Source of the DNA: Sphingopyxis macrogoltabida
GTDB taxonomy: Bacteria > Pseudomonadota > Alphaproteobacteria > Sphingomonadales > Sphingomonadaceae
Length of the DNA stretch: 64,000 nucleotides
NCBI RefSeq assembly: GCF_001314325.1
Contig: NZ_CP009429.1
Span: forward strand, 2,852,501-2,916,500
Reading direction: 5' to 3'
Shown here: piece after piece, positions 7,013-60,352 of the stretch
Numbering within the stretch: the stretch's first letter is position 1
Layout of the letters: each line of letters opens with the position of its first letter
The notes under the pieces: model-generated
Seen by the model: only the letters and a program-made list of their open reading frames with translations
Told to the model about the DNA's origin: nothing
The model's database searches: none
Translations under genes and position numbers: made by a program

Positions 7013-7094
7013 TTCGCGTCGGCCGGGGAAATTTCCATCCCCCGGCATTTTGCCCCCCCGGACGGCCATCACGGCCGCAACCGGGAGGGTAAGA

Positions 7095-10028
7095 ATGCGA
7101 AGGAAATATCTGGCCGCGATGCTGGCCTCGACCGCGGCGCCGGCCGTACTCTACGCGCCTATGGCGCAGGCACAAACCGACCAGCGGAGCTACGACATTG
7201 CTCCACAGCGGCTCAGCGATGCGCTGCGCAAATATTCGGAAGTGTCGGGCCGCGAGGTGATTCATTCGGGTAACCTGACCGAAGGCAAGCGCAGCGGCCG
7301 AGCACAAGGCCGCCTCACCCCCGACGCCGCCCTCACCCGCCTGCTTTCCGGCACCGGCCTGATCGCCGAAGTCGTCGATGGGGCGCTCGTGATCCGCGAG
7401 GGAAACGGCGATGCGGGGGCGGACCTCGCTTCGATTGACGCGGACGGCGATGCGATCATCGTCACGGGCTCGCGCATCCGCGGCGCCGGGCCGATCGGCT
7501 CGCCGGTCGTTACCCTCGATCGTGCCGCGATCGAGAAGGCCGGCTATGGCACGGTCCAGCAGATGCTTCAGTCGTTGCCGCAAGCCTTTGGCGGTGGACC
7601 CAACGAGACGGTCTCGGGAACGACGACGCGCAACGGCGGCGGCAATGACAGCAGCGCCGGATCGAGCATCAACCTGCGCGGGCTCGGAACCTCTTCCACG
7701 CTCGTGCTGATCGATGGCGCCCGGCCAGCCATCGGCGGGATCGGCGGCGTCTTCGCCGACATTTCGCTGATCCCGGTCAATGCGATCGACCGGGTCGAGG
7801 TGCTCACCGATGGCGCCTCGGCCATCTACGGCGCGGACGCCGTCGCGGGCGTGGTCAATATCCGGATGCGCACTCGCTTCGAAGGCGCCGAGACGCTGGT
7901 GCGGGCGGGAACGGCGGATGGCGACATGGGTGAAATCCAGGTCGGCCAGGTTTTTGGCAAGCACTGGGGCGGTGGACGCCTCGTCCTCGCCTATCAGTTT
8001 TCCGACCGCAGCGCCCTCCCCGGCTCAAAGCGCGATTTCTTCACCGAGGACCTACGGCCGTTCGGCGGACCGGATTATCGATCGCTCTATGCTGCACCGG
8101 GGACAATCACCGCGGCCAACGGCCAGCGCTTCGGCATCCCGCAAGGACAGGATGGCCGCGCACTCGCCGCGTCGGCGCTGCTCCCCGGGGTCCAGAACAA
8201 GCGCGACCAGCGGCAAGCGAGCGATATTCTTCCTCACCAGCGCACGCATAGCCTCTACGCGGCAGGCGAGATCGCGATCACTGATGGTCTTACGCTCCGC
8301 GCCAATATTCTCGCTGCCCAACGTCGCTTCAGGAAGGTGGCCAAGAGCGACTATCTGCAGGCCGCGCGAGTGCCGGTAACCAACCCATTCTATGTCGATC
8401 CGATTGGCACCAATCAGCCAGTGACGGTCACCTACAGCTATGTGAATGACCTCGGTCCGCAGATCGACACCGGCAAGTCGCGTGGTCTTACGGCCTCGGC
8501 GGGACTGGAACAGGAGGTCGGCCGATGGCGCATTCAGCTGGGCGGCGCGTTCGGCACACAGAAGAGCACGCTCGACCGCCTCAATGTCCCCAACCGCGCA
8601 CGATTGGCGGCTGCGCTGGCCGACACCGACCCTGCGACGGCCTTCAATATCTTCGGCAATGGCACCGCCAACAACCCGGCGACTGTCGACCGCATCCGCG
8701 GCAGCTTTTCCTCGGTCGACGATTTCGAGAGCTGGTCCGCCGCGCTCCGCGCCGATGGACCGTTGCTGCGGCTGCCCGGCGGCGATGTGCGCCTCGCGAT
8801 CGGCGCGGAGTATCGACGCGAGCGCTATGATACGGTGTCGATCAATGACATCAGCGCACTCGCGCCCTCGATCGACGATTTCGAATATTTTCCTGGGCCG
8901 CGCCATGTCCGCTCGACCTATGCGGAGCTTCTGGTGCCAATATTCGGACCGGACAATGCAGTTCCCGGTTTCCGGCGCCTCGACCTCACGCTGGCCGGAC
9001 GCCTCGAGGATTACAGCGATGTCGGCCGGACCGCGAACCCGAAATTCGGTGTTCGCTGGGAGCCTGTTGCCGGCATCGCACTCCGCGGCAGCTATGGCAC
9101 ATCCTTCCGCGCCCCGGCATTCGACGAGCTCGTCGGCCCCGCGATCTCGCTGTACACGGCGGAGCAGGTGCCCGATCCGGCTTCGCCGACCGGCGTATCG
9201 ACGGTGCTGGCATTGTTCGGCTATGCGCCCGGCATCGGCCCCGAGAAGGCAACGACCTGGACAGCCGGGTTCGACGTCGCGCCGCCTTCCATCCCTGGGC
9301 TCAAGGCCACGCTTACCTATTATGAGGTCGATTATAAGGGGCGGATCGGGACGGCGAGCGAGGATTATACCCGCTTCCTCGCCAACCGAGACCTGTTCGC
9401 AGGCGTGATCCAGGACAACCCTCCGCTCGCTCTGGTCCAGAGCTATTTCGATGCGCCGACCTTCTTCAACGTCGTAGGTGCGGCGCCGACCGACATCGTC
9501 GCCATTCTCGACGGCCAGATCCGCAACCTTTCGCGCGAGCAGCAGAAGGGGCTCGACTTCGACCTCGGCTACGCGCCCGAATTCGCCGGCGGCACGCTGG
9601 AATTCGGCTTGGGGGGAACGCATATCTTCTCGATCCGACGCCAGCTCACGCCCGGGGCACCGGCGGTCGATGTCGTCGGAACCTATGCCAATCCGGCCCA
9701 ATGGCGTCTTCGCGGTCGCCTCGGCTGGTCGAAGGACGGCTTTTCCGTCGGCGGTTTCGTCAACTATATCGACGGTTACTGGAATCAGACCGCGAACCCC
9801 GTGCAACGCGTTCCCTCGTGGACGACGGTCGATCTGAATGTCAGCCAGAAAATCGGCGGCGACGATAATGGTCGCGGTTTGTCGCTGGGCCTCAGTGTCC
9901 TCAATCTGTTCGACAAGGATCCACCGCTCGTCTTCAACCGGAGCAATACCTCGGCGCTCGCCTACGATCCTGAAAAGGCGAGCCCGATCGGCCGCTCGAT
10001 GGCGATCCAGGCGGTCATTCGGTGGTAG
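7095..10028 (+). CDS. TonB-dependent receptor with STN signalling domain
   Basis: A 977-residue outer-membrane transporter. Residues 1-27 are a signal peptide ending AQAQ. Residues 28-100 form an STN domain (YDIAPQRLSDALRKYSEVSGREV), which signals to FecR. A TonB-box-like DAIIVTGSRI stretch, the plug domain (INLRGLGTSSTLVLIDG, IDRVEVLTDGASAIYGADAVAGVVNI) and a 22-strand barrel end in an aromatic-rich terminus (IQAVIRW). The ATG at 7095 is chosen because GGGAGGGTAAG precedes it. From the context it probably imports the lasso peptide for cleavage by the isopeptidase encoded next. The isopeptidase start overlaps the receptor stop. Confidence 0.95.
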   Translation: MRRKYLAAMLASTAAPAVLYAPMAQAQTDQRSYDIAPQRLSDALRKYSEVSGREVIHSGNLTEGKRSGRAQGRLTPDAALTRLLSGTGLIAEVVDGALVIREGNGDAGADLASIDADGDAIIVTGSRIRGAGPIGSPVVTLDRAAIEKAGYGTVQQMLQSLPQAFGGGPNETVSGTTTRNGGGNDSSAGSSINLRGLGTSSTLVLIDGARPAIGGIGGVFADISLIPVNAIDRVEVLTDGASAIYGADAVAGVVNIRMRTRFEGAETLVRAGTADGDMGEIQVGQVFGKHWGGGRLVLAYQFSDRSALPGSKRDFFTEDLRPFGGPDYRSLYAAPGTITAANGQRFGIPQGQDGRALAASALLPGVQNKRDQRQASDILPHQRTHSLYAAGEIAITDGLTLRANILAAQRRFRKVAKSDYLQAARVPVTNPFYVDPIGTNQPVTVTYSYVNDLGPQIDTGKSRGLTASAGLEQEVGRWRIQLGGAFGTQKSTLDRLNVPNRARLAAALADTDPATAFNIFGNGTANNPATVDRIRGSFSSVDDFESWSAALRADGPLLRLPGGDVRLAIGAEYRRERYDTVSINDISALAPSIDDFEYFPGPRHVRSTYAELLVPIFGPDNAVPGFRRLDLTLAGRLEDYSDVGRTANPKFGVRWEPVAGIALRGSYGTSFRAPAFDELVGPAISLYTAEQVPDPASPTGVSTVLALFGYAPGIGPEKATTWTAGFDVAPPSIPGLKATLTYYEVDYKGRIGTASEDYTRFLANRDLFAGVIQDNPPLALVQSYFDAPTFFNVVGAAPTDIVAILDGQIRNLSREQQKGLDFDLGYAPEFAGGTLEFGLGGTHIFSIRRQLTPGAPAVDVVGTYANPAQWRLRGRLGWSKDGFSVGGFVNYIDGYWNQTANPVQRVPSWTTVDLNVSQKIGGDDNGRGLSLGLSVLNLFDKDPPLVFNRSNTSALAYDPEKASPIGRSMAIQAVIRW

Positions 10029-11995
10029 GGCGGTACGCCCTGTCGCTCGCCCTGCTGGCCGCGGCGTCGCCTGCGGCCAGCCAGGTGACGCCGCGCGAGA
10101 TCGCCGAGATCGCCGATATCTCGGGGCTGGCAGCTTCTCCTGATGGAAGATGGCTCGCCTATCGCGTCGAACGACCTTCTACAGCAGACAACCGGATCGA
10201 CGCCGAATGGTTCATCGTCGCCGCCGACGGCAGGACAAGCCCCCGTTCGCTGGGGCAGCTGGGCACCGCGCTATCTAATGACGCGGGCAGCATTCTTCCC
10301 GGCGAAATCGGCTGGACGCCGGACAGCCGTTCGATCGTCGTCCGTGCGCTGGTCGACGAGCGGGTCGGCCTCTGGAGAAGCGCTATCGACGGCTCTGGCT
10401 TTTCCCCAGCGATTGTCGCCGATGGCGATGTCGAGAATTTCGCGCTTCTTCCCGACGGCACGCTGGTCGTCAGGCAGCTCCCCTCGCGCGCAGAAACGAT
10501 GCGCGCCGAGGAGCGTGAACGCGAGGCCGGAATTTTGGTCGATGGCCGCACCGACCTTGCCGCTCCCCTCTTCCGGGGCGGGATCGTGAACGGTCGCCAC
10601 GCGACCCAGCGTTTCACCGGCGACTGGTTCAACCGCGCACCCCTCCTCGGCGAGCGCCCACCTATCCTGCGAACATGGAAGTTAGACACAGGCGAGGAGC
10701 GCCCGCTGTCCAAGGGAGAAATTTCGGCGCTGGCCGATCGACCGACCCTGGAACTTCCTGCCGCTCCGGCTGCCGCCCTCGAGGCTGCTGGCGCGTGCAT
10801 CGCAGGTCCGGCATGCGCCGACGCCACGCTACGCCTCTCCTCGTGGATCGGGGCCCTGGGTGGCAGGATCGTAATGGCCCTCCGGGACGGCGCCTATCGG
10901 CAGACGCTTTATATTTGGTCGCCAGAGACCGGCAATGTCCGGAAATTGGCGTCCGGCGAAGGCTTGCTCGCGGGCAACCGGCTGGAAAGCACAGCCTGCG
11001 CTCCCGTCCCGGACGCCGTTTTCTGTGTCGAAGCCGCACCCTCGATCGCCCCTCGCCTCGTTCGCATCGGCTTCAACGGGCGCAAGACGATCATCGCATC
11101 ACCCAATGGTTATCCTGGCGACGACGGGCTCCTTGCCGAAACCGTCGCTTGGCAGGTGAGCGGCAGCCGTGCGTCGGGCATACTTATCCGCCCGAAGATC
11201 CCCGGACGGCTGCCGCTCTTCGTCACCTATTATCGATGCGCGGGCTATCCGCGCGGCGGACTGGGGGATGAATGGCCACTGCGCGCACTTGCCGCCAGCG
11301 GAATTGCGGCGCTCTGCATCAACGCGCTCCCGGGCGGCGCGAAGGCGGAAGATCGATACGGGCTCGCGATGGCCGCGGTTCGTGCAGCGATCGACGAGCT
11401 CGATCGCCGGGGGATCGCCGATCGCAATCGCGTCGGAATGGGCGGTCTCAGCTTCGGGAGCGAAGTGACGATGTGGATCGCGACCCATAGCGACATGCTC
11501 CGCGCGGCCTCGATCGCCTCGCTGCAGATGGGTCCCGCCTATTATTGGTTCAACGCGCGGCCCGGGCGCGAGATGTTCACCGCGAATCTTGAGCAATACT
11601 TCGGCGTCGGGTCACCCGATGATGATCCCGACGGGTGGCGGCGAATGTCTGCTGCGTCGAATCTCGACAAGCTCGAAGCGCCCCTGTTGTTACAGCTTCC
11701 AGAACATGAGGCACGGCAGACCATCGAACTGATTTCGAAGGTCGCGACTGCCGAGATCGGCGAGACACACATTTTCCCGCTCGCGCCGCATATCAAGGTG
11801 GAGCCTCGACAGAGGCTGGCAGCCTACAACCGCAATCTCGACTGGTTTCGCTACTGGCTGAAGGACGAGAGCGACCCCGATCCCAAAAAGGCAGCGCAGT
11901 ATCAGCGCTGGGCCGCCATCCGTGCCGCACGCGACGCACTCTCCAGCGAACGGAGCCAACGTTCGATATCCGCAATCTCGAGCAACCGGAAGTAA
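10022..11995 (+). CDS. atxE: Lasso peptide isopeptidase, S9 prolyl-oligopeptidase fold
   Basis: A 657-residue serine hydrolase that cuts the isopeptide bond of lasso peptides and turns the knot into a linear chain. The N-terminal half is propeller-like (ISGLAASPDGRWLAYRV). The C-terminal half is an alpha/beta hydrolase with the nucleophile in GGLSFGS (Ser477) and a candidate His in LAPHIKVEP. I could not place the acidic residue of the triad with certainty. A hydrophobic N terminus ending in ASQ suggests export. The start is a GTG overlapping the receptor stop. The last 94 bases overlap the 3' end of the convergent cyclase gene. Clusters with this enzyme typically lack the ABC transporter, as here. 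Confidence 0.9.
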   Translation: MVGRYALSLALLAAASPAASQVTPREIAEIADISGLAASPDGRWLAYRVERPSTADNRIDAEWFIVAADGRTSPRSLGQLGTALSNDAGSILPGEIGWTPDSRSIVVRALVDERVGLWRSAIDGSGFSPAIVADGDVENFALLPDGTLVVRQLPSRAETMRAEEREREAGILVDGRTDLAAPLFRGGIVNGRHATQRFTGDWFNRAPLLGERPPILRTWKLDTGEERPLSKGEISALADRPTLELPAAPAAALEAAGACIAGPACADATLRLSSWIGALGGRIVMALRDGAYRQTLYIWSPETGNVRKLASGEGLLAGNRLESTACAPVPDAVFCVEAAPSIAPRLVRIGFNGRKTIIASPNGYPGDDGLLAETVAWQVSGSRASGILIRPKIPGRLPLFVTYYRCAGYPRGGLGDEWPLRALAASGIAALCINALPGGAKAEDRYGLAMAAVRAAIDELDRRGIADRNRVGMGGLSFGSEVTMWIATHSDMLRAASIASLQMGPAYYWFNARPGREMFTANLEQYFGVGSPDDDPDGWRRMSAASNLDKLEAPLLLQLPEHEARQTIELISKVATAEIGETHIFPLAPHIKVEPRQRLAAYNRNLDWFRYWLKDESDPDPKKAAQYQRWAAIRAARDALSSERSQRSISAISSNRK

Positions 11996-13599
11996 TCGTG
12001 ATCGCCAGAGATGCCGTCGCGGGCAAGATAGGCTTCAATTGCGGCGCGGTTGAGAAAACCGAGTGCGGCCAGTCGGCCGTCGAGCAACAGGCCGCGAAGT
12101 GCGGGCCGCTGCCGCAAATAGGCAGCGCTGCAGGCGCTCTCGAGCCGTCCCTTGCCCTTGCGCCATATGATCGACGCCGGCAGGCGCCGCGCAAAGGCCT
12201 GCCGCGCAATCGCCCGGTCGCGCCCGCCGGTGAACCATGTCCAGCTCGGAATAGAGAGGCATAGTTCGACGACGGGCTGCGATAGCAGCGGGGCAATGAC
12301 GTCGCGGCCTGTCCAGCGCTCGGGTCGATCGAGAAAGTCGAGGATCCGGCGGATCGCCGCGACATGCTTGCGCTTCCCGCGCGGCGTGATCTCAGGGGCA
12401 TCGTCCCAAGGATGGGGAAGCGGCTGCTCTGGCATCGCCTCGTTCCGACAGAATTGCGTTTCACGCACCCAAGGGGATCGCGGACCGTCGCGCCATGCAC
12501 GCCACGAAAGCCGCGCCGCCTGCCAGAGGGTTGCCTCGCTTGCTTGGGCAACATTTCGGAGCGCAGCAAAACTCGTCCCGGATACGCCGCACGCCTGCAA
12601 CGCGTCGATGACCGGGGCAACCGACGTGTCGAAGTCGAAGACATTGTCGCCTCCGATTCCTCCGAAAATCGCAACTGACCTGGCGCCCACGGCTTGTTCA
12701 AACGCGAGATCGAGCCCGCCAAGCACGCCATAGGCTCCGGGACGCGGGCGCACGGTGTTCGGCATCCCGACCAGATCGATCGTTGCTTCGTCGTTGAGCA
12801 CTTCGAGCAGTTCACGACCGAATTGCGCGGAAACTGCAGCCGCGAAGCCGCGCTCGTCTCCGTCTGCGGCCGCAGTGGCAAAATTGATCGCGGAAAAGTC
12901 CGCGCCTGCGGCGTCGAGCGCCGCCGCGACGATGGAGGAGTCGAGGCCCCCGGAAAGTTCCAGCAGGATTTCGGGCCGACCCGCGCACCAAGCCCGTGTG
13001 CAGTCGATGATCACCGCCTCCAACTGCCGCGCAAGGTCATCGACGGAAACTGCCGGCTGGGGAGCGATGTAATTCCAGGGCGACCATGCCTCGGTCGTCG
13101 TGGCCGATGTGCCTGTCCAACCAAGCCGGCTGCCTGAGAGCAACTCGTTCAAACCCGAGACGCCGGTGCGCTCGGTGCGCAGATTGGGATAGGCGAGACT
13201 GTTCCCGACAAACGCTTCGTCAACCGCAAGACCGCATCCGAGCTCGGAGAGGATCTCCAGGCTCGTCGAGCAGAGAACCCCCTCGTCTTGCCTGGTCCAG
13301 TAGAGCGGCAACCCGGTCAGCGGCGCTCTCTCGATCGTCGCGGAACGGCCCGAGGCGCCGAAAGCGAGGTAATTTCCCCAACCTTCATCCGGACGGCCGG
13401 GACCGGATCCGCAGGGGGCAAAGCAATCGCCTACCACGATCGAGCCGTCTTCCAGACTCCGGCTGGGCAGGTCCGGCGAGCAATAGAGATGCAACGACCC
13501 GCCTTCATGGAGCGGCGCGAGACCGCAGCGTCTCGCTACGCCCGCAGCCCTGCCGCGGCTTGCCGGCGCTCCTAGCGCAGCGAGAATGTGGCGCCTCAT
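11902..13599 (-). CDS. atxC: Lasso cyclase, asparagine-synthetase-like (C protein)
   Basis: A 565-residue ATP-dependent macrolactam synthetase. It would adenylate the side-chain carboxylate of core residue 8 and join it to the freed Gly1 amine. It has a degenerate glutaminase-like N-terminal domain and an Asn-synthase domain with the pyrophosphate loop SGGLDSS at 216-222. A lysine-bearing segment IIWRKGKGRLES lies further on. The start at 13599 is chosen because it overlaps the B stop in ATGA; an in-frame extension upstream is not needed. The 3' end is antisense to the isopeptidase end. Confidence 0.92.
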   Translation of the reverse strand: MRRHILAALGAPASRGRAAGVARRCGLAPLHEGGSLHLYCSPDLPSRSLEDGSIVVGDCFAPCGSGPGRPDEGWGNYLAFGASGRSATIERAPLTGLPLYWTRQDEGVLCSTSLEILSELGCGLAVDEAFVGNSLAYPNLRTERTGVSGLNELLSGSRLGWTGTSATTTEAWSPWNYIAPQPAVSVDDLARQLEAVIIDCTRAWCAGRPEILLELSGGLDSSIVAAALDAAGADFSAINFATAAADGDERGFAAAVSAQFGRELLEVLNDEATIDLVGMPNTVRPRPGAYGVLGGLDLAFEQAVGARSVAIFGGIGGDNVFDFDTSVAPVIDALQACGVSGTSFAALRNVAQASEATLWQAARLSWRAWRDGPRSPWVRETQFCRNEAMPEQPLPHPWDDAPEITPRGKRKHVAAIRRILDFLDRPERWTGRDVIAPLLSQPVVELCLSIPSWTWFTGGRDRAIARQAFARRLPASIIWRKGKGRLESACSAAYLRQRPALRGLLLDGRLAALGFLNRAAIEAYLARDGISGDHDYFRLLEIADIERWLRSLESASRAARMAAQR

Positions 13600-14252
13600 C
13601 CGACCGTCAATATGGGAGTGAAGTTTCGGGCTTCGGCGGCGGTTCCTGTCAATATGGCTCGCTCCGTCTGTAGCCAGCAATGCGCGTTGAAGGGATTGAG
13701 CCTGACTCCGAAGACGAGGGTCGCGGCGACACCCTCACGAAGAAGAAGCCAGTCGAGCGCGAGGGCATCGACCAGGCAGCGCGGCGCGACGGGAATCAGC
13801 CAGCGGCTCGCGGCAAACCCCGCGGCCAGATCCTCGGCTTTGCTCTGCTTCCCGGCTCCCGCCCTGTCCGCCTTGGCGGCGGCAAGATATTCTGCAGTCC
13901 GCGCAAGCCGGGCGGGCCGCATTGCGAGGCGCGCCCAGATCAAGCCCCGCGCCGCCGCGAAGGCCGTGCCCCATCCGGAGCCGGACCGGGCGGAGCAGGC
14001 CGAGAGATCTTCCTCAGGGACGATGATCTCCGTTGCCCTGATCGCCCTCCCGCCATTCCCGGCGACGATCAAACCGCTGCCGGCGAGCCGCGTCATTGCG
14101 CGTTGATCGCCGGTCGCGCCAGAGCGCAAGCGATCGAATGTCACGCGGTCCTCGCCGCGAAGCGCGAGGTAGCGGTCGCGACGCAGGTCCAGAAACAGCA
14201 GTTCTCCGCCCACTTCGCAGAAGCCCGTGCCGGATGCCAATCGCCATTCCAT
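13596..14252 (-). CDS. atxB: Lasso leader peptidase with fused RRE (B protein)
   Basis: A 218-residue maturation protein. Residues about 1-85 resemble the PqqD-like RiPP recognition element (LLFLDLRRDRYLALRGED), which binds the leader. Residues about 100-218 are the transglutaminase-like cysteine peptidase, with Cys159 in APRCLVDALALDWLLLREG and His191 in LNPFNAHCWLQ. It removes the leader after the Thr-Ala site. A fused rather than split B protein is the usual proteobacterial form. The stop overlaps the cyclase start by 4 bases. Confidence 0.92.
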   Translation of the reverse strand: MEWRLASGTGFCEVGGELLFLDLRRDRYLALRGEDRVTFDRLRSGATGDQRAMTRLAGSGLIVAGNGGRAIRATEIIVPEEDLSACSARSGSGWGTAFAAARGLIWARLAMRPARLARTAEYLAAAKADRAGAGKQSKAEDLAAGFAASRWLIPVAPRCLVDALALDWLLLREGVAATLVFGVRLNPFNAHCWLQTERAILTGTAAEARNFTPILTVG

Positions 14253-14305
14253 ATCGGTGCACGAGCTACCTCCGGGAGTGGCGCTTGCCGCTCCCGGACG
14301 CAGGC

Positions 14306-14434
14306 TCAGTCCTGGGCAAGACCGGGGCGGGTCATGCGGCCGCCGGATTCGAGCGGCAGTCCGAAATCGCCGGCCGTGTCGCCGCTGACTGTGCCGAGTT
14401 CGACGAGATCGTCCGTTTGCAGTTCGCGTTCCAT
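14306..14434 (-). CDS. Lasso peptide precursor, second copy
   Basis: A 42-residue precursor starting MERELQTDDLVELG. The leader ends SGDTA, with the conserved Thr at position -2. The predicted 21-residue core begins GDFGLPLE and ends RPGLAQD. Gly1 and Glu8 give an 8-residue macrolactam ring. The tail is SGGRMT then RPGLAQD, and the bulky residues able to lock the thread are probably Arg or Met. The gene lies 53 bases upstream of B and 69 bases downstream of the first precursor. It shares the leader motif and the ESGG and GL-x-QD core motifs with that paralogue. The ribosome site is weak (AAGGA). Confidence 0.88.
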   Translation of the reverse strand: MERELQTDDLVELGTVSGDTAGDFGLPLESGGRMTRPGLAQD

Positions 14435-14503
14435 AATCGCATCCTTGTGTGAAGCTTGAAGAGCGAGGCCGGGAGCCGGCAACACCGACCCCCGGCGCCC
14501 GGA

Positions 14504-14626
14504 TCAGTCCTGGGTCAGGCCGAGCGGCTGATATTTGCCGCCGGATTCGATTCCGACCCGGTCTTCGCCCGCCGTGTCGACGCTGACGCTGCCGAGCTCG
14601 ACGATGTCATTGGTTTCACGATCCAT
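14504..14626 (-). CDS. Lasso peptide precursor, first copy
   Basis: A 40-residue precursor starting MDRETNDIVELG. The leader ends SVDTA, with Thr at -2. The predicted 21-residue core begins GEDRVGIE and ends QPLGLTQD. Gly1 and Glu8 are placed for an 8-membered ring. The tail carries SGGKY, with Lys/Tyr as candidate plugs. A good ribosome site (AAAGGAGA) precedes the ATG. The core end resembles the GL-x-x-D ending of known caulonodin-type lasso peptides. It is the first processed gene of the minus-strand biosynthetic run A-A-B-C. Confidence 0.9.
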   Translation of the reverse strand: MDRETNDIVELGSVSVDTAGEDRVGIESGGKYQPLGLTQD

Positions 14627-14689
14627 GATCGCTCTCCTTTGCCATGCTGCCGCGGAATTGCGGCACTACCAAAGCTACGCCGCTGATTT

Positions 14690-14733
14690 CAGATAGGAAT
14701 TTTATAATTTTCGAATATGCCGAATATTATCTG
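14690..14733. promoter_or_regulatory. AT-rich dyad between gntR and the precursor genes
   Basis: CAGATA (14690-14695) and TATCTG (14728-14733) are inverted around a very AT-rich centre (TTTTATAATTTTCGAATATG). The block lies 64-107 bases upstream of the first precursor start and includes the gntR stop codon. It is the likely promoter/operator of the precursor genes, perhaps bound by the GntR-type protein. This is inference from position and symmetry. Confidence 0.4.
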
Positions 14734-15347
14734 AGTGGCTCGGTCCGGGGCTTGAGCTCGGCAACGATCCGCCCCGCCTGCGCGACACGGCGACGATGGA
14801 AGCTTGTGATTTTGCTCCGCAATCCGGTCCAGCGGCCGAAGCGATAATCCTCTTCCATTGCCGCCAGTAGCTCGCGGGATGCCGGGTCGATGCGCGCTTC
14901 TGCTGCACGGAAGATCTGACTTCGCTCGATATTAGCGATGAGCGCGTAGCGAAGCTCGCGATTCTGCGCGCCGATCGCGATCGTGCGAAACAGCGACTCG
15001 ACCGCTTCCATGTAGCCGGCGTGCCCGGGCAGCTCGAAAAGACCGCCGGTCATCGGGTGCGGCGTCCTTCCCTTCAGCGCGTGGGAGAGCAACAAGCCTC
15101 CCCACCCGTAGAGATCGCAGAGATCGGCCTCGGCCAGTGAAGGCTGGCGAAACCCTTCCTGATGCCAGCTCTCCACGATGCGCTCGCCCGAAAGCCGGTG
15201 GAGCGCATCACGTACCGGGGTCGCGCTCGCATCGAGTGTCTTGGCGAGCTGCGTCGGATCGAGCCGCGTCCCCGGCGGATATTGCCCTGAGATGATCCGC
15301 GCCTTGAGGTCGAGATAAACCCGCTCCATCGTTGCGCCCGGGCTCAT
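14727..15347 (-). CDS. GntR-family transcriptional regulator
   Basis: A 206-residue regulator. The N-terminal winged helix is seen at about 5-75: VYLDLKARIISGQYPPGTRLD, then TLDASATPVRDALHRLSGE, the classic GntR recognition region. The C-terminal part is helical and short for an FCD ligand domain. Start at 15347: its ATG overlaps the stop of the dioxygenase gene (ATGA). It sits immediately before the precursor genes and probably controls them or itself. The ligand is unknown. Confidence 0.85.
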   Translation of the reverse strand: MSPGATMERVYLDLKARIISGQYPPGTRLDPTQLAKTLDASATPVRDALHRLSGERIVESWHQEGFRQPSLAEADLCDLYGWGGLLLSHALKGRTPHPMTGGLFELPGHAGYMEAVESLFRTIAIGAQNRELRYALIANIERSQIFRAAEARIDPASRELLAAMEEDYRFGRWTGLRSKITSFHRRRVAQAGRIVAELKPRTEPLR

Positions 15348-16237
15348 GATACTACCGCCCCGCCGCTCTCGCGCTGTCCCGCAACAAACTCCTCGAGCAG
15401 CGCATTCTGGTCGGGCCGAAGCGCATCGACCGCGGCGATCGGGTCTTCGGGATAGCCGCCGAACAGGAGCGATGGGCATTGGCCCTCGAAGTTGCCAAGG
15501 TTGGGCCGATGCTGCGTGTAGCCGACGAGCGCGGCAACCTCGGGCGGGAAATCGCATGCGATGTAGGGCGGATATGCCAACCACTGATTCTCGTATGGCT
15601 TCAGCCAGCCGAGACAGTAGCTGACGATAATCGCGCGGCGAACAGCATCGCTCCGGTTCGCGCCCGCCCCATGCAGGGTCGAGCCCAGGAAAATGATCGC
15701 GTCGCCCGGTTCGGCGATCGCAGCGACCGGCGGCTCGGGCGGCTGCTCGATGAGCGCCTCCTCGCCATGACTGCCGGGCCAGATGAGCGTCGCACCATTC
15801 TCGATTGTGAAAGGCGTGAGCGGCCACATGACGTTCACCAGATATTCGACCTCGCCGGTCACGCCCTGCCACATCTCCTGGTCGCGGTGCGGGAATTGGG
15901 CGAGCGCGCCGGGGTGGAGTTCGATCGCCTGGGTCAGGTTGAGTTGCATGCGCTCGCACCAGGGAAGGAGCGCCTCCTCTGCCGCAGCGAGAACGGCAGG
16001 ATGCATCACCAGCTCGGCGGAGCGCGGCGCACGCAGCAGCAGGCGCCCGAACCGTTTCGTTCGCTCGCCATAGAAGCCGCCCTCGCAAAAGGGCGCGGCG
16101 TGAAAACGCGCGTCGAGATCGCGATCGATCGCCATCATCGCGTCGGGCGCCATAGCGCCGCGGAGGATCGCAAAGCCCCGCTCGTTGAGATCGGCCAGCG
16201 GGGATGCAACGACTTTGGAATGCCTGGTCATGGTCAT
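15344..16237 (-). CDS. Phytanoyl-CoA dioxygenase (PhyH) family Fe(II)/2OG oxygenase
   Basis: A 297-residue protein with the double-stranded beta-helix iron-binding pattern: His-x-Asp in FPHRDQEMW, a distal His in STLHGAGAN and a 2-oxoglutarate-binding Arg in VRRAIIVSY. It begins 5 bases after the luxI stop with its own GAGGA site and overlaps gntR. PhyH enzymes hydroxylate small molecules, and some act on peptides. Its place in the lasso operon makes it a candidate tailoring enzyme for the peptide. The alternative is a role in making or altering the homoserine-lactone signal. Confidence 0.85.
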   Translation of the reverse strand: MTMTRHSKVVASPLADLNERGFAILRGAMAPDAMMAIDRDLDARFHAAPFCEGGFYGERTKRFGRLLLRAPRSAELVMHPAVLAAAEEALLPWCERMQLNLTQAIELHPGALAQFPHRDQEMWQGVTGEVEYLVNVMWPLTPFTIENGATLIWPGSHGEEALIEQPPEPPVAAIAEPGDAIIFLGSTLHGAGANRSDAVRRAIIVSYCLGWLKPYENQWLAYPPYIACDFPPEVAALVGYTQHRPNLGNFEGQCPSLLFGGYPEDPIAAVDALRPDQNALLEEFVAGQRESGGAVVS

Positions 16238-16242
16238 TGTCC

Positions 16243-16851
16243 TCAGGCCGCCGCGGCGGCAGGCGCCGCCACCGACCGGATTCCTGCGGCCGCGAGCCGC
16301 CCCAATGTCTGCGCATCGATATCGATCCGCAGGGCGACCAGCGCTCCTTCGCCCGCGCCCTGCGGGGCACCGAGCATCCGGCAGTCCCAGCCGAAGGTCT
16401 GGATCTTGCGGAACCAGCCGAGCTCGGCGACCCCGACATAGGCGGAGATCCCGTTCGACAGCGCGAAGTCGACGAGCCCAATGAGGAGCGCGTCGCGCGC
16501 CTCGCGCCGCATCGCAGCGCCGATGTCCGGCGACAGGCAGAAGCGGGTGATCTCGAGGATATCGTCGCCCTCGGGCATCTCGCCATCGACGAGCGCCGGA
16601 TAGAGGCTGCCGAGCAGCGATGGCCTCGTCGTCATAAGGAGCCGCGCCGAGGCGCGGTGCGCATTGTCGCGTCCGGCGACGAGGAGATAGGTCGCGTAAG
16701 CGTCATCGAACTGGTCGAGCTCGAATCGCCCTGCGAGAACGGGCACGTCCCATTTCAGAAGATCGATGAAGACGCGTTTACGCGCCTCGAACATCGAACG
16801 GAGCACCGCATGTTCGCGGGCACGGTTGGTCTGGTCGACGACTAATAGCAT
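16243..16851 (-). CDS. Acyl-homoserine-lactone synthase, LuxI family
   Basis: A 202-residue synthase that makes an acyl-homoserine-lactone from S-adenosylmethionine and an acyl carrier. Family features: the RKRVFIDLLKWDVP segment, the FDDAYATYLLV block with acidic and aromatic residues, ASARLL, EITRFCLSP and a YVGVAELGWFRKIQTFGW C-terminal region. The ATG at 16851 follows GGAGAGA; a longer in-frame extension to 16995 lacks family similarity. It is followed at 5 bases by the PhyH gene. The cognate luxR lies upstream in the same direction. Confidence 0.92.
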   Translation of the reverse strand: MLLVVDQTNRAREHAVLRSMFEARKRVFIDLLKWDVPVLAGRFELDQFDDAYATYLLVAGRDNAHRASARLLMTTRPSLLGSLYPALVDGEMPEGDDILEITRFCLSPDIGAAMRREARDALLIGLVDFALSNGISAYVGVAELGWFRKIQTFGWDCRMLGAPQGAGEGALVALRIDIDAQTLGRLAAAGIRSVAAPAAAAA

Positions 16852-17031
16852 GGTGTCTCTCCGGATCAGGGTGAAAGAGACAGACCAATTGAACCGCATT
16901 TCGGAGCGGCGCCATATCAAGAAATGGGGGTGTCGCAGTCGCGGCGCACGGAGCTCGGCGCAGTGCTCGGCGCGCGGCAAAGCCGCGGCCTGCAAAATCT
17001 GGATTCCCTACGTGAAGGCTTCGCGAAGGCT

Positions 17032-17772
17032 CTAACGGCCAGCAATATCGGTGAAACTGATCGTTCCGTCCCAGAGCGCCCGAATGGCGAGTACTGTTCT
17101 GCTCGGCGCGTCGTAGCGGCCGCGGGCATTGCGGAGATGCTCGACGACGGTCCCGGGACGGAGCGCGAGAATCTGCCCGATCGCCCAGTCGGATTTACCG
17201 CGCGCCGCCCAGATGACGATGTCGCGCTGGCGGTCGGTGAGCCGCGGACGGTTCGCCTCGGGGACAGGGCCCGCAATCTGGCGCGCAGCCTCGAACGCGA
17301 AGGGTCCGAACATGCCGGCAAAGGGAAGATCGCGAACCGTCGGCCCGCCGCGGTGCCAGGCAAAGGATACCGAGCCGTGCGCTTCGCCTGGCACGTGTGA
17401 GGGAATTGTAAGTCCATCGCGGATGCCGTGCCGGCGCGCTTCGCCAAGCACGAGATCATCGCCCGCGCGAACCGGCGTCCAGCGCGGCGCCTCTTGCCAC
17501 AGAAAGGCGGCGCTCGTGCGCTGGCTGGCGCGGTGAATGGGATCGGAGGGACCGAGGCGCTGCTCGTCGAAGCGCCTTGCCCAGCTATCAGGATAATTGT
17601 GAACGCGTATTCCCTGTCGGGGCGACAGCAGGAAATCGACATGGTGGCTAAGCGCAAAATAGTCGCAGCCCAGACGCGCGGCGGCAGCACCCATGAGGTC
17701 GAGCAGGCCCGCCTCGGTCCTTACCGTCATCACGTCGATCGCGAGCTCGCTCGCGGCGTCGAGAATGAACAT
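17032..17772 (-). CDS. LuxR-family quorum-sensing regulator
   Basis: A 246-residue regulator. The N-terminal autoinducer-binding domain is seen at about 10-160: CDYFALSHHVDF, NYPDSWARRFDEQRLGPSDPI, GISI-like GIRDGLTIPSHVPGEAHGSVSFAW. A GerE-type helix-turn-helix follows at about 180-240 (RLTDRQRDIVIWAARGKSDWAIGQIL, then TVVEHLRNARGRYDA). The ATG at 17772 places the expected N terminus. It precedes luxI by 180 bases in the same direction and should sense its product. Targets are unproven; the co-directional lasso genes are the obvious candidates. Confidence 0.9.
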   Translation of the reverse strand: MFILDAASELAIDVMTVRTEAGLLDLMGAAAARLGCDYFALSHHVDFLLSPRQGIRVHNYPDSWARRFDEQRLGPSDPIHRASQRTSAAFLWQEAPRWTPVRAGDDLVLGEARRHGIRDGLTIPSHVPGEAHGSVSFAWHRGGPTVRDLPFAGMFGPFAFEAARQIAGPVPEANRPRLTDRQRDIVIWAARGKSDWAIGQILALRPGTVVEHLRNARGRYDAPSRTVLAIRALWDGTISFTDIAGR

Positions 17773-17935
17773 TATGATCCATGACAATGCCGGTGAACGT
17801 CGCCAAGCCGAACATCTGGCACTGTTCCTTCGCCAAGAGCCCGCCGGCGGCGCCCACTCAATTAGGCACCGGCGAAGCGATGACATCACCGCTGGTCAAA
17901 GTGATCGGATGCACGTGAAAATGTGTAAGCGACGG

Positions 17936-17952
17936 ATATATTGCAAATATAT
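17936..17952. promoter_or_regulatory. Perfect 17-bp dyad upstream of luxR
   Basis: ATATATT-GCA-AATATAT has perfect 7-bp arms. It lies about 165 bases upstream of the luxR start and just past the stop of the DUF2493 gene, in the most AT-rich stretch of the interval. It could be part of the luxR promoter or an operator. It does not match a textbook lux box. Confidence 0.35.
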
Positions 17953-18009
17953 TCCGCAGAAACATCCAAATTGAGGATAGTTTTGGCGGCGCGCCCGCCA
18001 CGCATGCGC

Positions 18010-18942
18010 TCAGCCCGGTTTGCCGCGATGGTCCCACACCGGGATCCCGAGCTTCTTCGCCTTGTCGACAAGATTGTCCTGAATGCCCGTGCCTGCAAAC
18101 ACGATGACGCCCGCAGGGAAGGCTTCCAGCATCGCGTCGTTGCGCTTGAACGGTGCCGCCTTCTTGTGTTTTGCCCAGTCCGGGCGGAATGCGACCTGCG
18201 GCACGCTTCGGCTTTCCGCCCAGCAGGCCGCGGCACGTTCGGCGCCGGTCGGCGTCGCGCCGTGGAGCAGCACCATGTCGCTGTGCCGCGCACGCACCCG
18301 GTCGAGGACATCCCAGATCTTCCGGTGATCGCCTCGGTCGGCACCGCCGGTGAAGGCGATGCGCGTACCTTCGGGAAGCAGTGCGGCTGCCTTCGCGCGA
18401 AGTCTCGCGTCGAGAAAGTCCCGGCTGTCGATCAGCGCGGACGTCATGGCCTTTTGATTGCTTCGTGACCCCGTGCGCGGCAACCATGCCTTGCGCAACA
18501 GCAGACGGAATTGGTCGGCGGCGGCCTCGCGGAAAAATTCCATCGCGTCGCGCCGCTCGATAAGCGAGATGCCCTCGCGCGTTGCCCGCTCGAGTTCGAG
18601 CGAGCGGATCTCGCTGCCATCCTGCTCGCGTTGGAGCCGTCGCTGGGTCTGTTCATTGTCGTCGAGCTGCCGCTCGACCCGCTCGCCGGCACGGTGGAAG
18701 ATATTGACGAGATTCCAGAGAAGGTCGTCGAGATCGGGCTCGATCCGGGTCTCCACGAGACACCCCGCTAGCGCATCGAACATGTCGGCGATTGCACCCC
18801 TGGCAAGATGCGCATCGGGGAGCGGTCTCGGGTCGGGCTCATCCTCGAAGGGCCGATGACCGAAGAGCTGCATTTCCTGAAGCAGATAGGCCGTCGTTCC
18901 GGGTTCGGCTGGATGGTCGTGAGGGGTGGCGTCGCCGTGCAT
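18010..18942 (-). CDS. DUF2493 (YspA/SLOG-type nucleotide-binding) protein
   Basis: A 310-residue protein. The N-terminal 150 residues are helical (LERATREGISLIERRDAMEFF). The C-terminal part, about 190-310, is a DUF2493 Rossmann-like domain: TRIAFTGGADRGDHRKIWDVLDRV, MVLLHGATPTGAERAAACWA, PDWAKHKKAAPFKRNDAML, VIVFAGTGIQDNLVDKAKKLGIPV. The GGADRGD and HGAxPTGAE motifs are the predicted nucleotide-binding sites. Such genes recur on sphingomonad plasmids and integrative elements beside toprim, strawberry-notch and parB genes, as here. The function is unknown; SLOG proteins may sense nucleotides. Confidence 0.8.
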   Translation of the reverse strand: MHGDATPHDHPAEPGTTAYLLQEMQLFGHRPFEDEPDPRPLPDAHLARGAIADMFDALAGCLVETRIEPDLDDLLWNLVNIFHRAGERVERQLDDNEQTQRRLQREQDGSEIRSLELERATREGISLIERRDAMEFFREAAADQFRLLLRKAWLPRTGSRSNQKAMTSALIDSRDFLDARLRAKAAALLPEGTRIAFTGGADRGDHRKIWDVLDRVRARHSDMVLLHGATPTGAERAAACWAESRSVPQVAFRPDWAKHKKAAPFKRNDAMLEAFPAGVIVFAGTGIQDNLVDKAKKLGIPVWDHRGKPG

Positions 18943-19251
18943 GATGGATCTCCGTCTGATTGTGCCGCGCCTCGCGCGGCCTTCGTGGCGACGGCCCGCG
19001 GCATGCGGGGTGGGCCCGCATCGCGGCAGGCCGCGACCGGAGCGCAGCGGAGGATGGCGGGCGCGCGGCTATTTTGTTTCGCGATGCAAAGGGGCCGCGA
19101 GGCCCCGGCGGAAAATAGCCGCGCGACCGCCATTGCGGTCCCGCTCCGCCTGCCGCAGTCGCCCTCTAACGAAGGCCGGGCGCGCGCCCGGCAGCGGGTG
19201 GCATACGCGACCGCCTGCCGCCCCCTGTCCCTTCCGGCCAGTCCAAGGCGA
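18943..19251. other. 309-base untranslated interval with strong secondary structure
   Basis: No gene supported. It separates toprim from DUF2493 in the leftward run and holds the nested hairpin at 19062-19125, plus further GC-rich short palindromes. It may be a 5' leader or a processing/termination region. Confidence 0.5.
19062..19125. repeat. Nested inverted repeat (14-bp arms enclosing a GCGA hairpin)
   Basis: CGCGCGGCTATTTT (19062-19075) is perfectly inverted at 19112-19125. Inside it, GGGGCC-GCGA-GGCCCC (19091-19106) forms a second perfect hairpin with a stable GNRA-type loop. The structure can fold in either RNA strand or as a cruciform. It lies upstream of the DUF2493 gene. Confidence 0.65.
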
Positions 19252-20283
19252 TCAGAGAAGCTTCAATCGATCGGAAGGAACAAGCTGGCTGCGAAGCGAG
19301 GCCGCCAACGCGGCGCGGCCCACGGTCCTGAGGTCGCCGTTGAAGTCGCCATGCCGGGGTTCGAGCGGCCAAACGTCGATGCCGCATCGTGACGCGCGCT
19401 CGCTGAGCGTCGACAGCGCAGCGTCGCCGGCGGGATCATCGTCGCGCGCGACATAGAGCCGCTTCAGCATATCGGGAAACGTGATGGCGGCAAGATGCGC
19501 GCCCGAGAGCCCCGAGATCATCGGGAGGGCCGGCATGACCTGACGCAAGGACAGGATGGTCTCAATGCCCTCGCCTGCCGCCATGACCGTTCCCGACGCC
19601 CCGAAACGGACGCCATTGCCGAGGAGATGCCCGATAGCGCGTCGCGGATAGGCGATCGGCGCCTTGTCGGCGCTTTCGGGGTCGAGCCAGGTCCGATGGA
19701 CGCCCATGACCGTCCCGGCGAGGTCGGTCACCGCCGCGATCATCGCCGGCCACGCCGGTCGCCCTCCGGGTGCATCGTCGATCGAGGCCCGGTAGAAGCA
19801 ATGCGGATGAAAGCGCAGCGGATAATCCGGAAGGAGCTCGGTGATCGATCGTCCCACAAGATAGGCCTCACCGAGACTGGCCTTCAATGGCTTGGTCGCC
19901 GCCAGCAGCCGCCGCGCCGACTCCGGTGACCCGGTGGGAGCTTTTGTGGGTGCGGGGTTTCGCGGTGCCTCGGGCGGCGGCGGCATGCTTAGAAACCGCC
20001 GTGCTTCCTCGAGGGTCTCACGAAATGCCGTATGGCCGCAGCTCGCGGCGATGACGTCGAGGAGATCGCCATGATCGCCGCTCGCAGCGTCGGTCCATTT
20101 CCCGGGGGCGCCGCCATTGGCACTGGAAGCAAGCCGCACATAGAGGCTTCGCCCCGGAGAATTGCTGATGTCGCCGACCATCCAGTAATGGCCTTCGCGG
20201 CGCCCGTTGGAGAGATAACGACGGCACACCGCCTCGGCATTCTCCCCGAGACGGCGCGCAACTTCGGATGCTGGACTGGACAT
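19252..20283 (-). CDS. Toprim-domain protein of mobile elements (primase-like)
   Basis: A 343-residue protein. The first 90 residues resemble a zinc-less primase N-terminal region (EAVCRRYLSNGRREGHYWMVGD, WTDAASGDHGDLLDVIA). A toprim fold follows in the C-terminal half, with Glu in MAAGEGIETILSLRQ and the Asp pair in LYVARDDDPAGDAA. It probably binds DNA and metal in plasmid or element replication. Start at 20283 (MSSPASEVARRLG); upstream in-frame sequence overlaps the strawberry-notch gene and is not similar to the family. Confidence 0.82.
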   Translation of the reverse strand: MSSPASEVARRLGENAEAVCRRYLSNGRREGHYWMVGDISNSPGRSLYVRLASSANGGAPGKWTDAASGDHGDLLDVIAASCGHTAFRETLEEARRFLSMPPPPEAPRNPAPTKAPTGSPESARRLLAATKPLKASLGEAYLVGRSITELLPDYPLRFHPHCFYRASIDDAPGGRPAWPAMIAAVTDLAGTVMGVHRTWLDPESADKAPIAYPRRAIGHLLGNGVRFGASGTVMAAGEGIETILSLRQVMPALPMISGLSGAHLAAITFPDMLKRLYVARDDDPAGDAALSTLSERASRCGIDVWPLEPRHGDFNGDLRTVGRAALAASLRSQLVPSDRLKLL

Positions 20284-22205: not shown

Positions 22206-23210
22206 CTAGGCCCGCCTTCGAACGTCGGTGAGCATCGTGATCAGGGCATCGGATGGCGGCTTGAAGCGCCCGGGCTTGATGGCAGGAGCGCCGTGCGCCG
22301 CGAGAATCTGCAGCTTCTCCTCGGGATCGGCGCGCAAATAGGTCTCGGTGCTCTGGATGCTGGCATGGCCGAGCCACAATGCGACTTTGCGAATGTCCCC
22401 TGTCGCCGCGAGCGTGTGCATTGCGCAGGAGTGGCGCAGCACGTGCGGTGTTACGCGCTTGCCAAGGATCGACGGCTGCTTCTCTGCCGCGCGCTTGACG
22501 TGCTCCGCCAAACGGAACGCAAATCCGTCGCGGGTCATGGGTTGCCCGCTGGCATTGAGGAATATCTCGGCAGCTTGCGCATCGGGGCGGATCGCAAGCC
22601 ACGCGCGCAATGCGAACTGAGTCTCCTTCCAGAGCGGGAGGACCCGTTCACGCCGTCCCTTGCCCATGATGTGCACGGTGGACAGGAAGCGGTCCGGGAA
22701 ATCGCGCAGTTGTAGCGTTACGAGTTCCGACACCCTCAGCCCGCCAGCATAGGCCAGATGCAGCATTGCGCGATCGCGGGTGCCAAGGCGTGTCCGGGGA
22801 TCCGGGGCGTCGAGCAAAGCCTTGATCTCTGCCCGGTCGAGGTAGTCGATCAGCGCCTTGTCGGTCTTCTTGGTAGGGATCGATCTGACGCGAAGGGCCT
22901 GATCCAGGCAGGCCGGAATACGATACTCGATGTAGCGGAAGAAGGACCGGATCGCGGCGAGCCTGCCATTGCGGGTCCGAACACAGCTGCCGCGACCGTT
23001 CTCGACATGGTCAAGGAAGGCCATGATCATGTCGGTGCCGAGATCCTCGATCTCGAGATCGGTCGGCCGACGCTTCAGCCGATCGGCAGCGAACTGGACC
23101 AGGAGGACAAAGCAGTTGGCATAGGTCTTCACCGTGTGCGGACTGACAGCACGTTCGCGCGGCAGATGTTCACGCAGGTAGATCGAGAGGTGCGGAGCGA
23201 GTGCCGTCAT
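22206..23210 (-). CDS. ritC: RIT tyrosine recombinase C
   Basis: A 334-residue phage-integrase-family recombinase, third of the trio. The SAM-like core-binding domain occupies about 1-100. Catalytic residues visible: Arg in GGLRVSEL, His-x-x-Arg in HVLRHSCAMH, His in LGHASIQST and the nucleophile Tyr in TETYLRAD. The start at 23210 overlaps the ritB stop (ATGA); the longer in-frame start at 23288 would lie inside ritB. It acts with A and B to move the element. The division of labour among the three is not established. Confidence 0.9.
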   Translation of the reverse strand: MTALAPHLSIYLREHLPRERAVSPHTVKTYANCFVLLVQFAADRLKRRPTDLEIEDLGTDMIMAFLDHVENGRGSCVRTRNGRLAAIRSFFRYIEYRIPACLDQALRVRSIPTKKTDKALIDYLDRAEIKALLDAPDPRTRLGTRDRAMLHLAYAGGLRVSELVTLQLRDFPDRFLSTVHIMGKGRRERVLPLWKETQFALRAWLAIRPDAQAAEIFLNASGQPMTRDGFAFRLAEHVKRAAEKQPSILGKRVTPHVLRHSCAMHTLAATGDIRKVALWLGHASIQSTETYLRADPEEKLQILAAHGAPAIKPGRFKPPSDALITMLTDVRRRA

Positions 23211-24139
23211 GCCGCTTCTCCCCGGTAAAGTTGCTCGCTGGCGACAGCGATATCGCGCAGCAGCACCGGAGTGGCCTCGAGATACCAATAGGTGTTGGCG
23301 ACCGACGCATGCCCCAGATATACGCTGAGTCCGGCCATGTGGTGTGCGATGGCTTCCCTGTCGCGCGGACAGGACTCAAGGGAACGCACGGCGAAAGTGT
23401 GCCGCAGGTCGTGTAACCGCATCCCGGCCGTTCCGGTCGGTCCGCGGTATCCGAGCTGCCGGGCCAGCCTGACGAACACCACGTGGGCGCGCACCTTGTG
23501 TGGTGCTCTCCCCCGAATGGTCACGAACAGGTCATTGCCCGTGGCGCCAAGCCTTGCTCGGGTGGCGAGATATGCTTCGAGCGCCTGACGGGTCGATGGC
23601 TGCAAGGTAATCAGCCGCTGCTTGCCGAACTTGCCGTTGCGGACGATCAGGCCATCCTCGACCAGATCGTTGCATTGAAGAGCGAGGGCCTCGGAAATCC
23701 GGAGACCTGTCGCCGCCAGCAGGCCGAACAGATAATGATACGTGTACGGGCTGATCGTGCCTTGGGGCGCAACGTCCAATACCGCGGTCATGATCGCCCG
23801 GACCTGTTCCGGTTCGATGATGGTCGGGGTCGGGCGTGGCCGCTTGCCCCGACCGAAGACGCCCGCAGGCGGAACCTCGTGAGCTGGATCTTCAGCATGA
23901 GCGAAAAGGCTGAAGTTACGTACGGCGTCGAACCTATGGCGGGCCACGTTCTGCGAGCTTGCCGTGTGGCACCAGTCGTAAATGCGCTGCACTTGGGTGT
24001 GCCGGTCACCGGCGCGGCCGGCGAAATCGGCGTATTGGCGCAGCAAGCGTTCCTGTTCGGAGAACTTCCGTCCCAAGCTGCGATGGAGCGAGACGTATCT
24101 GGAAATGTGCATGTTCAGCATGACGGTTCTCCCGGCCAT
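23207..24139 (-). CDS. ritB: RIT tyrosine recombinase B
   Basis: A 310-residue recombinase, second of the trio. Catalytic motifs: Arg in TGLRISEALALQ, His-x-x-Arg in HDLRHTFAVRS, His in LGHASVANTY and Tyr in the same segment (NTYWYLE). The first ATG is used here; a second at 24121 (MLNMHISRYV) would give a shorter overlap with ritA and is equally possible. It is translated in an overlapping frame with both neighbours. Confidence 0.9.
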   Translation of the reverse strand: MAGRTVMLNMHISRYVSLHRSLGRKFSEQERLLRQYADFAGRAGDRHTQVQRIYDWCHTASSQNVARHRFDAVRNFSLFAHAEDPAHEVPPAGVFGRGKRPRPTPTIIEPEQVRAIMTAVLDVAPQGTISPYTYHYLFGLLAATGLRISEALALQCNDLVEDGLIVRNGKFGKQRLITLQPSTRQALEAYLATRARLGATGNDLFVTIRGRAPHKVRAHVVFVRLARQLGYRGPTGTAGMRLHDLRHTFAVRSLESCPRDREAIAHHMAGLSVYLGHASVANTYWYLEATPVLLRDIAVASEQLYRGEAA

Positions 24140-53298: not shown

Positions 53299-53315
53299 CG
53301 CCCTAGGAGACTATC

Positions 53316-54635: not shown

Positions 54636-54683
54636 CAGCAGCCGGCCCGGCTTCGTCCGGGCCGGTCACCCAAGGAGGTGACC

Positions 54684-54956: not shown

Positions 54957-54958
54957 TC

Positions 54959-55321: not shown

Positions 55322-55323
55322 TC

Positions 55324-57005: not shown

Positions 57006-57021
57006 ACCATAGGAGGCCTAT

Positions 57022-58564: not shown

Positions 58565-58591
58565 TTGAGCCTCCCCGGAAAGGCCGGGAAG

Positions 58592-60326: not shown

Positions 60327-60352
60327 GCACGTTCAGATAATAGGAGGCGCGG

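Follow-up and report, generated by a model that had tools for sequence, protein, structure and literature searches.

In the genome of Sphingopyxis macrogoltabida (assembly GCF_001314325.1; 5.7 Mb, three contigs), a lasso peptide gene cluster is preceded by the quorum-sensing (QS) genes luxR and luxI and by a third gene, phyH, within a stretch of 64,000 nucleotides (contig NZ_CP009429.1, positions 2,852,501 to 2,916,500), the whole of which is called the window here. This luxI-lasso arrangement is real and recurrent well beyond one genome. I propose, at a probability of about 0.6, that luxR-luxI-phyH would be a conserved regulatory front end of an isopeptidase-type lasso cluster, in which LuxR with its acyl-homoserine lactone (AHL) acts on luxI-phyH-gntR, and GntR, or read-through, acts on the precursors. 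The genes concerned, which I refer to as the cassette, are the following.

17032-17772, minus strand: luxR, autoinducer-binding transcription factor (PF03472 96.7 bits and PF00196 31.9 bits on the 285-amino-acid open reading frame (ORF) 17032-17889; ATG at 17772)
16243-16851, minus strand: luxI, acyl-homoserine-lactone synthase (PF00765 83.4 bits)
15344-16237, minus strand: phyH, Fe(II)/2-oxoglutarate (2OG) dioxygenase of the phytanoyl-CoA family (PF05721 85.7 bits)
14727-15347, minus strand: gntR, GntR-type regulator, putative hinge between QS module and lasso genes (PF00392 55.9 bits)
14504-14626, minus strand: lasso precursor 1, predicted core GEDRVGIESGGKYQPLGLTQD, ring G1-E8 (NF033522 32.2 bits, just under the cut-off of 33)
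14306-14434, minus strand: lasso precursor 2, predicted core GDFGLPLESGGRMTRPGLAQD, ring G1-E8 (NF033522 33.9 bits, cut-off 33; scanned as 14306-14437)
13596-14252, minus strand: lasso B, leader-peptide processing (PF13471 71.2 bits; NF033537, lasso B2 protein, 74.2 bits, cut-off 33)
11902-13599, minus strand: lasso C, macrolactam synthetase with asparagine-synthase fold (PF00733 86.3 bits)
10022-11995, plus strand: E, AtxE2-family lasso peptide isopeptidase, an S9 peptidase (NF033523 467 bits, cut-off 400)
6876-10028, plus strand: TonB-dependent receptor (PF00593, PF07715)
6104-7012, plus strand: FecR-like anti-sigma factor (PF04773)
5532-6107, plus strand: FecI-like extracytoplasmic function (ECF) sigma factor (PF08281, PF04542)

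The order read from the sequence agrees with a first-pass annotation of this DNA, which had luxR, luxI, phyH, gntR, two precursors, B and C all running in one direction, here the minus strand, and its spacings hold as well, luxI and phyH being 5 bp apart and the pairs phyH/gntR and B/C each overlapping by 4 bp. The genes for FecI, FecR, the TonB receptor and the isopeptidase lie on the plus strand, convergent with C. Lasso precursors carry Thr at position -2 of the leader, Gly at position 1 of the core and an acceptor Glu or Asp at positions 7-9; by sequence pattern both precursors have Thr at -2 and Gly1 and Glu8 in the predicted core, and their NCBIfam family is named 'benenodin family lasso peptide' (NF033522). 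Lasso C reaches the cut-off of none of the NCBIfam lasso cyclase models (NF033561 73.9 of 300 bits; NF033535 46.7 of 525 bits), and the nearest solved relatives of the isopeptidase are the AtxE2 structures 5txc and 5txe. With precursors, B, C, isopeptidase, TonB receptor and FecI/FecR all matched, the locus is, by its predicted products, an isopeptidase-type lasso cluster, of the proteobacterial kind known from astexin, benenodin and sphingopyxin.

Residues D46, D49, R70, E100 and R103, which I take to be catalytic in LuxI, are invariant across 14 aligned LuxI sequences, together with R24, F28 and W34. The latter three are given as catalytic in the relevant part of PMC3704786. The catalytic residues of the window luxI product are intact as judged from this alignment, and the adjoining LuxR has predicted autoinducer-binding and helix-turn-helix domains. 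The window LuxI is closest to Sphingopyxis records, at no more than 70% identity. Two further luxI loci are present in the same genome: L063, a diverged second cassette, and L082, a luxR-luxI-phyH-gntR group for which about 6 kb of downstream sequence shows no lasso genes and which has recombinase genes in the same stretch.

Linkage of luxI to lasso genes

In a census of 298 genomes of the family, PF13471 (the lasso B family) was matched in 134 and LuxI in 91, and the surroundings of the listed luxI genes were fetched and annotated with models built from the cassette. As luxI is split in L167 and L181, the 123 ORFs represent 121 loci. At 22 of these loci luxI forms one contiguous group with lasso B and C, in every case along with luxR, phyH and gntR; at eight others luxI is near a lasso cluster yet separate from it, and at 43 only phyH is present. 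The lasso share is a lower bound, since 12 of the non-lasso ORF rows have less than 6 kb of downstream sequence. Of the 22 contiguous loci, 19 match a strict precursor pattern in the gap from gntR to B (L071, L077 and L140 failed, with the precursor of L077 found further on).

Starting from the isopeptidase gives a similar picture. Among 57 isopeptidase places in 43 genomes (of 58 listed places, one of two pieces in G205 being excluded), luxI occurs within 8 kb in 23 and within 26 kb in 32, as compared with 0.36 and 1.15, respectively, for random placement. Likewise, luxI is carried by 40 of the 43 isopeptidase genomes versus 51 of the 255 others (Fisher p 9e-21, the genomes not being independent). 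At the L070 cassette the sole matching isopeptidase (G163:C17:45803) shares the contig with luxI but is about 27 kb away from it, which shows that the isopeptidase arm can be split off.

In a second scan of named records I took the best 80 of 300 relatives, picked by similarity to the cassette LuxI, which therefore gives no unbiased rate and shares at least six genomes with the family census (L265, L266, L267, L284, L289, L292). Here 56 loci are contiguous with the lasso genes, two are near, 14 have luxI-phyH-gntR, four have phyH only and four have none of these. Among the 56 contiguous loci luxR is in place in 55, phyH in 52 and gntR in 55, and the records include Sphingopyxis, Novosphingobium, Sphingomonas, Sphingobium, Sphingosinicella and Stakelama.

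A class-wide sample of 385 genomes matched PF13471 in 35, among them the window genome and four others of the family, and PF00765 in 59. Besides the window genome, six genomes have both families, always on different contigs (coordinates compared by eye; some assemblies are fragmented). As no contiguous luxI-lasso neighbourhood was seen by such comparison in this sample outside the window genome, the arrangement looks confined to sphingomonads. In a tree of LuxI (119 of the 123 ORFs, four being too short), lasso-linked sequences are found in several parts and well-supported branches force at least five changes, so that lasso linkage was gained or lost more than once.

A gene for PhyH is found downstream of 87 of the 121 family luxI, and B and C are in the stretch of 29 of the 43 family luxI loci with gntR downstream versus one of the 78 without it. 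As phyH follows luxI, and B and C follow gntR, the seam of the module is the phyH/gntR junction, where a 4-bp ATGA overlap is retained in 59 of 76 loci. Distances between LuxI proteins correlate with those of the other products in 43-45 loci (LuxR, r = 0.83; GntR, 0.76; PhyH, 0.71; C, 0.52; E, 0.49; B, 0.42); none of these values was reached in 500 permutations, with the species tree not removed. This shows luxI, luxR, gntR, phyH and the lasso genes to have been, as far as protein distances tell, inherited together.

Promoter elements and the proposed relay

In order to look for regulatory sites, motifs were learned from the contiguous loci. Two of these 78 loci are without a recognisable LuxI core, and of the other 76, 45 non-redundant loci, the window locus included, formed the set for the luxI palindrome. 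Controls for the motifs and for the hairpin were mononucleotide shuffles. The elements in the window are as follows.

16912-16931, minus strand: lux-box-like palindrome ACCCCCATTTCTTGATATGG between luxR and luxI (24.5 bits, the top match in the window; next best 10.7)
14714-14727, minus strand: ATATTCGGCATATT, the upstream one of two tandem boxes at the precursor promoter (the other lies 18 bp away in 35 of 42 loci)
14692-14709, minus strand: nearer box AATTATAAAATTCCTATC, consensus ccgTATAAAaTTCgtATa, candidate GntR operator (24.6 bits)
14648-14665, minus strand: hairpin TGCCGC-AATTCC-GCGGCA in the precursor leader, immediately ahead of the first precursor's ribosome-binding site

A palindrome of 18-20 bp is conserved about 80 bp before luxI (motif log-likelihood 388 versus 65-68 in shuffled sets) and scores above 9 bits in 42 of the 45 loci. 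Its sequence is unlike the lux-box form NNCT-N12-AGNN as quoted in a passage of PMC7432010, and as a LuxR site it is putative. A second, near-perfect palindrome, GAATATATTTGCAATATATCC, lies before luxR (17934-17954), and similar palindromes are found about 175-195 bp before luxR in L063, L132, L252, L254 and L271. I considered it as a GntR site and rejected it, as it recurs in only about six of the 45 loci, mostly of Sphingopyxis type.

The boxes before the first precursor are conserved as well (log-likelihood 422.7 versus 56-68 in five shuffled sets). The nearer box is located about 80 bp before the precursor ATG and seems to cover the -35 region, judged from a TANNNT -10 element placed by eye. 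The box score exceeds 9 in 46 of 51 rows with the cassette-type GntR versus two of 19 with other types, the 46 including four of the five clusters that have their cassette-type GntR at another place in the genome; the dividing score was set after the rows had been seen, and contiguous loci served as training set for the box model. In Sphingobium sp. SYK-6, for which PMC11024222 describes rsh mutants, about 60 kb separate luxR-luxI-phyH-gntR (L109; L265 in the named scan) from a lasso cluster that has no gntR next to it (L193), and the promoter of that cluster has nevertheless retained the box (20.3 bits). In a first pass GntR and box correlated at 0.71 (70 rows) and at 0.48 among the 28 rows outside the training set, with duplicates and three contiguous near-copies included. 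Between the boxes and the gene, a stem of at least five pairs is present in 57 of 68 precursor leaders (mean share in shuffled leaders 0.19, maximum 0.32). The stem sequences are highly varied, and stems also occur in clusters without luxI; the precursor message may carry the hairpin as an RNA element at its 5' end. An Rfam search over 5000-20000 gave no match at gathering scores.

Taken together, the proposed relay would work as follows. AHL-bound LuxR would activate the luxI promoter, upon which luxI, phyH and gntR would rise together. GntR, produced in step with the signal, would then regulate the precursor promoter, the apparent overlap of the nearer box with the -35 region making activation the probable mode, and read-through from gntR may add to precursor expression, as no terminator-like site was found on the minus strand from 13500 to 18300. 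PhyH may be a modifying enzyme for the signal or for its acyl precursor, and the TonB receptor, FecI/FecR and isopeptidase on the opposite strand would constitute a second, uptake-driven arm. A wider version is tentative and in my estimate closer to one possibility among several than to an expectation: a sphingomonad-wide circuit with two inputs, in which QS sets GntR, GntR licenses lasso synthesis via the conserved tandem operators, and the TonB/FecIR/isopeptidase arm signals back that this peptide has been taken up and destroyed. If this were true, the lasso peptide would be a density-gated, self-monitored public good or a second-tier signal and not a plain antibiotic.

Several observations weigh against a coupling of this kind. 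In the family census 14 of the 121 loci have luxI-phyH-gntR without B and C in the stretch, and at 34 neither phyH nor lasso genes were seen. Of the isopeptidase places, 25 of 57 are without luxI inside 26 kb, and among the 31 regions that hold a B but no adjacent luxI, 17 retain gntR upstream of B, so lasso genes can stand without the module. The published rule of GntR before the precursor holds for many but not all regions without adjacent luxI, some having GntR elsewhere. The B/C overlap is retained in just 33 of 78 loci. When contiguous loci and duplicates are removed, the link between GntR type and box is weak (Spearman 0.34, p 0.14, 20 rows; 0.45, p 0.05, without the broken L131 as well). 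Ownership of the precursor boxes by GntR is thus weakly indicated, and the GntR relay is the least secure of the proposed steps. Finally, the luxI-type palindrome is not enriched at precursor promoters over control windows in the 42 of the 45 loci with a recognisable first precursor. The earlier suggestion that density signalling drives lasso production is therefore upheld in one part, as gene order joins luxI to the lasso cluster, and not in the other, as a lux-box-like site is not enriched at the precursors.

The last observation bears on an alternative that I regard as improbable, though worth keeping in mind, namely that LuxR controls the precursors directly, or via one long transcript from the luxI promoter, with GntR only fine-tuning. 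The cassette genes are co-directional with short gaps, which together with the minus strand of 13500-18300 showing no terminator-like site would suit a long transcript, and in L068 and L236 a lux-type match at the precursor ranks in the top 1-2% of control windows. However, over the 42 loci control windows did as well (mean share 0.68 with the locus' own palindrome, 0.45 with the motif model), on which ground I rejected direct LuxR control of the precursors; the tests of L264, L290 and L293 are weak because a different own box was used there than in the motif set. A long transcript is at odds with the conserved promoter-like elements immediately before the precursors.

Comparison with known systems

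Two parts of the arrangement are already known, GntR before the precursor in isopeptidase clusters and luxR-luxI-phyH in sphingomonads. As described in the relevant sections of PMC9266682, isopeptidase-type clusters have a GntR gene in front of the precursor, and they share with the window this gntR, the order A-B-C, a convergent isopeptidase of AtxE2 type, a TonB receptor and FecI/FecR. The window differs in having luxR-luxI-phyH in front of gntR; the terms 'LuxR' and 'phytanoyl' do not occur in this review. On the other side, accounts in PMC3704786 (Gan 2013) and PMC4288048 (Gan 2015) describe, in their passages on QS loci, sphingomonad luxR-luxI-phyH, with luxR beside luxI and phyH downstream as in the window, and neither paper contains the words 'lasso' or 'GntR'. 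Topology T as laid out in PMC4288048 is unlike the window and continues with X (hypothetical) and virB genes.

The first-pass annotation knew of no standard coupling of LuxI/LuxR to lasso clusters. This is borne out insofar as literature searches found no published account of a conserved luxI-lasso coupling, subscription papers on single sphingomonad clusters, whose figures may show luxI, being mostly outside their scope. It needs qualification insofar as PMC9716278 tabulates one antiSMASH hybrid 'lassopeptide-homoserine lactone' cluster in Sphingomonas sp. So64.6b, in a table row and a sentence. This is probably the same kind of locus as in the window, given for one strain and, in that row and sentence, without discussion of its regulation. 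The lasso cluster of capistruin in Burkholderia thailandensis is, according to the pertinent part of PMC6963729, influenced by the AHL-linked ScmR; in contrast to the relay proposed for the window, the AHL effect there is indirect and repressive, on a four-gene cluster without luxI.

The arrangement suggests that sphingomonads may make the lasso peptide according to crowding, and the regulatory claim, based on gene neighbourhoods and motifs, is plausible and sharply testable. It touches on two questions: what purpose AHL signalling serves in sphingomonads, and under which conditions and to what end isopeptidase-type lasso peptides are produced. The joining of a QS module to gntR would offer one answer that can be tested for both, and AHL might serve to switch on silent clusters.

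Co-cargo, PhyH and the mobile block

The QS and lasso genes could also be no more than co-cargo of an accessory island, without regulatory coupling. This I consider unlikely. It would account for the cassette lying beside mobile genes in many Sphingopyxis, for the eight family loci with QS genes and lasso cluster near yet separate, and for a precursor promoter with its own boxes and no lux box. It does not agree with the recurrence of order, strand and ATGA overlap across genera, with the divergence of gntR along with luxI, or with the concentration of B and C at luxI loci that have gntR.

That PhyH is a lasso-tailoring hydroxylase appears less probable still. The gene is located inside the cassette, and the nearest solved chains are natural-product 2OG dioxygenases such as AusE/PrhA. 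Against this, 43 of the phyH genes that follow luxI have neither gntR downstream nor B and C in the stretch, and no phyH was found in 40 retrieved regions that centre on lasso genes or isopeptidases and have no luxI next to them. An earlier hypothesis, attributed to Hao 2010 where Gan 2013 (PMC3704786) cites it, placed phyH in a QS-regulated operon. Long noted beside luxI, phyH is, on its genomic neighbourhood, assigned to the signalling half rather than to the peptide half of the predicted system.

The first-pass annotation had also offered the alternative that luxR and luxI are part of the mobile-element block to their right and govern its transfer. The block comprises DUF2493, toprim, helicase and ParB; the QS pair would then act as TraR/TraI do on Ti plasmids, and the lasso genes would be mere neighbours. 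The block starts with one gene outside the module.

18010-18942, minus strand: DUF2493/YAcAr protein, start of the neighbouring mobile block (PF10686)

The gene order in the family and named censuses disfavours this alternative, which I find very improbable: luxR and luxI do not consistently travel with DUF2493, toprim and parB in place of the lasso genes, as DUF2493 is in the stretch of four of the 121 family and 21 of the 80 named loci, and is missing from that of 18 of 22 family and 39 of 56 named lasso-contiguous loci. The four family loci are all lasso-contiguous. Of the 21 named loci, 19 are Sphingopyxis records, 17 have B and C, L245 has B without a call for C, and L246 and L247 end at a contig edge. 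L224, the sole DUF2493-luxI locus with long sequence downstream of luxI and yet no gntR or lasso gene there, has a partial phyH match (residues 16-120 only). In favour of the alternative, DUF2493 lies upstream in the same direction in the window, L063, L074 and L132, four more DUF2493 places are found about 9-13 kb from luxI (G199, G242, G095, G122; by eye, among the matches listed), and relatives of the window LuxI occur on plasmids, with 35 of 41 records conjugative. Against it, the only DUF2493 places among those listed that were found within 5 kb of a luxI are the four family loci (coordinates by eye). DUF2493/toprim is a secondary companion of luxI, and the likeliest reading of the mobile block is that it often neighbours or carries the cassette, most of all in Sphingopyxis.

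Further to the right, three overlapping tyrosine recombinases stand in a row (22206-25662), resembling a recombinase-in-trio element. Related int1/int2 genes are also present near the window genome's other luxI loci (L063, L082). Prophage genes, with terminase large subunit, portal and tape measure, are located at 49560-62731.

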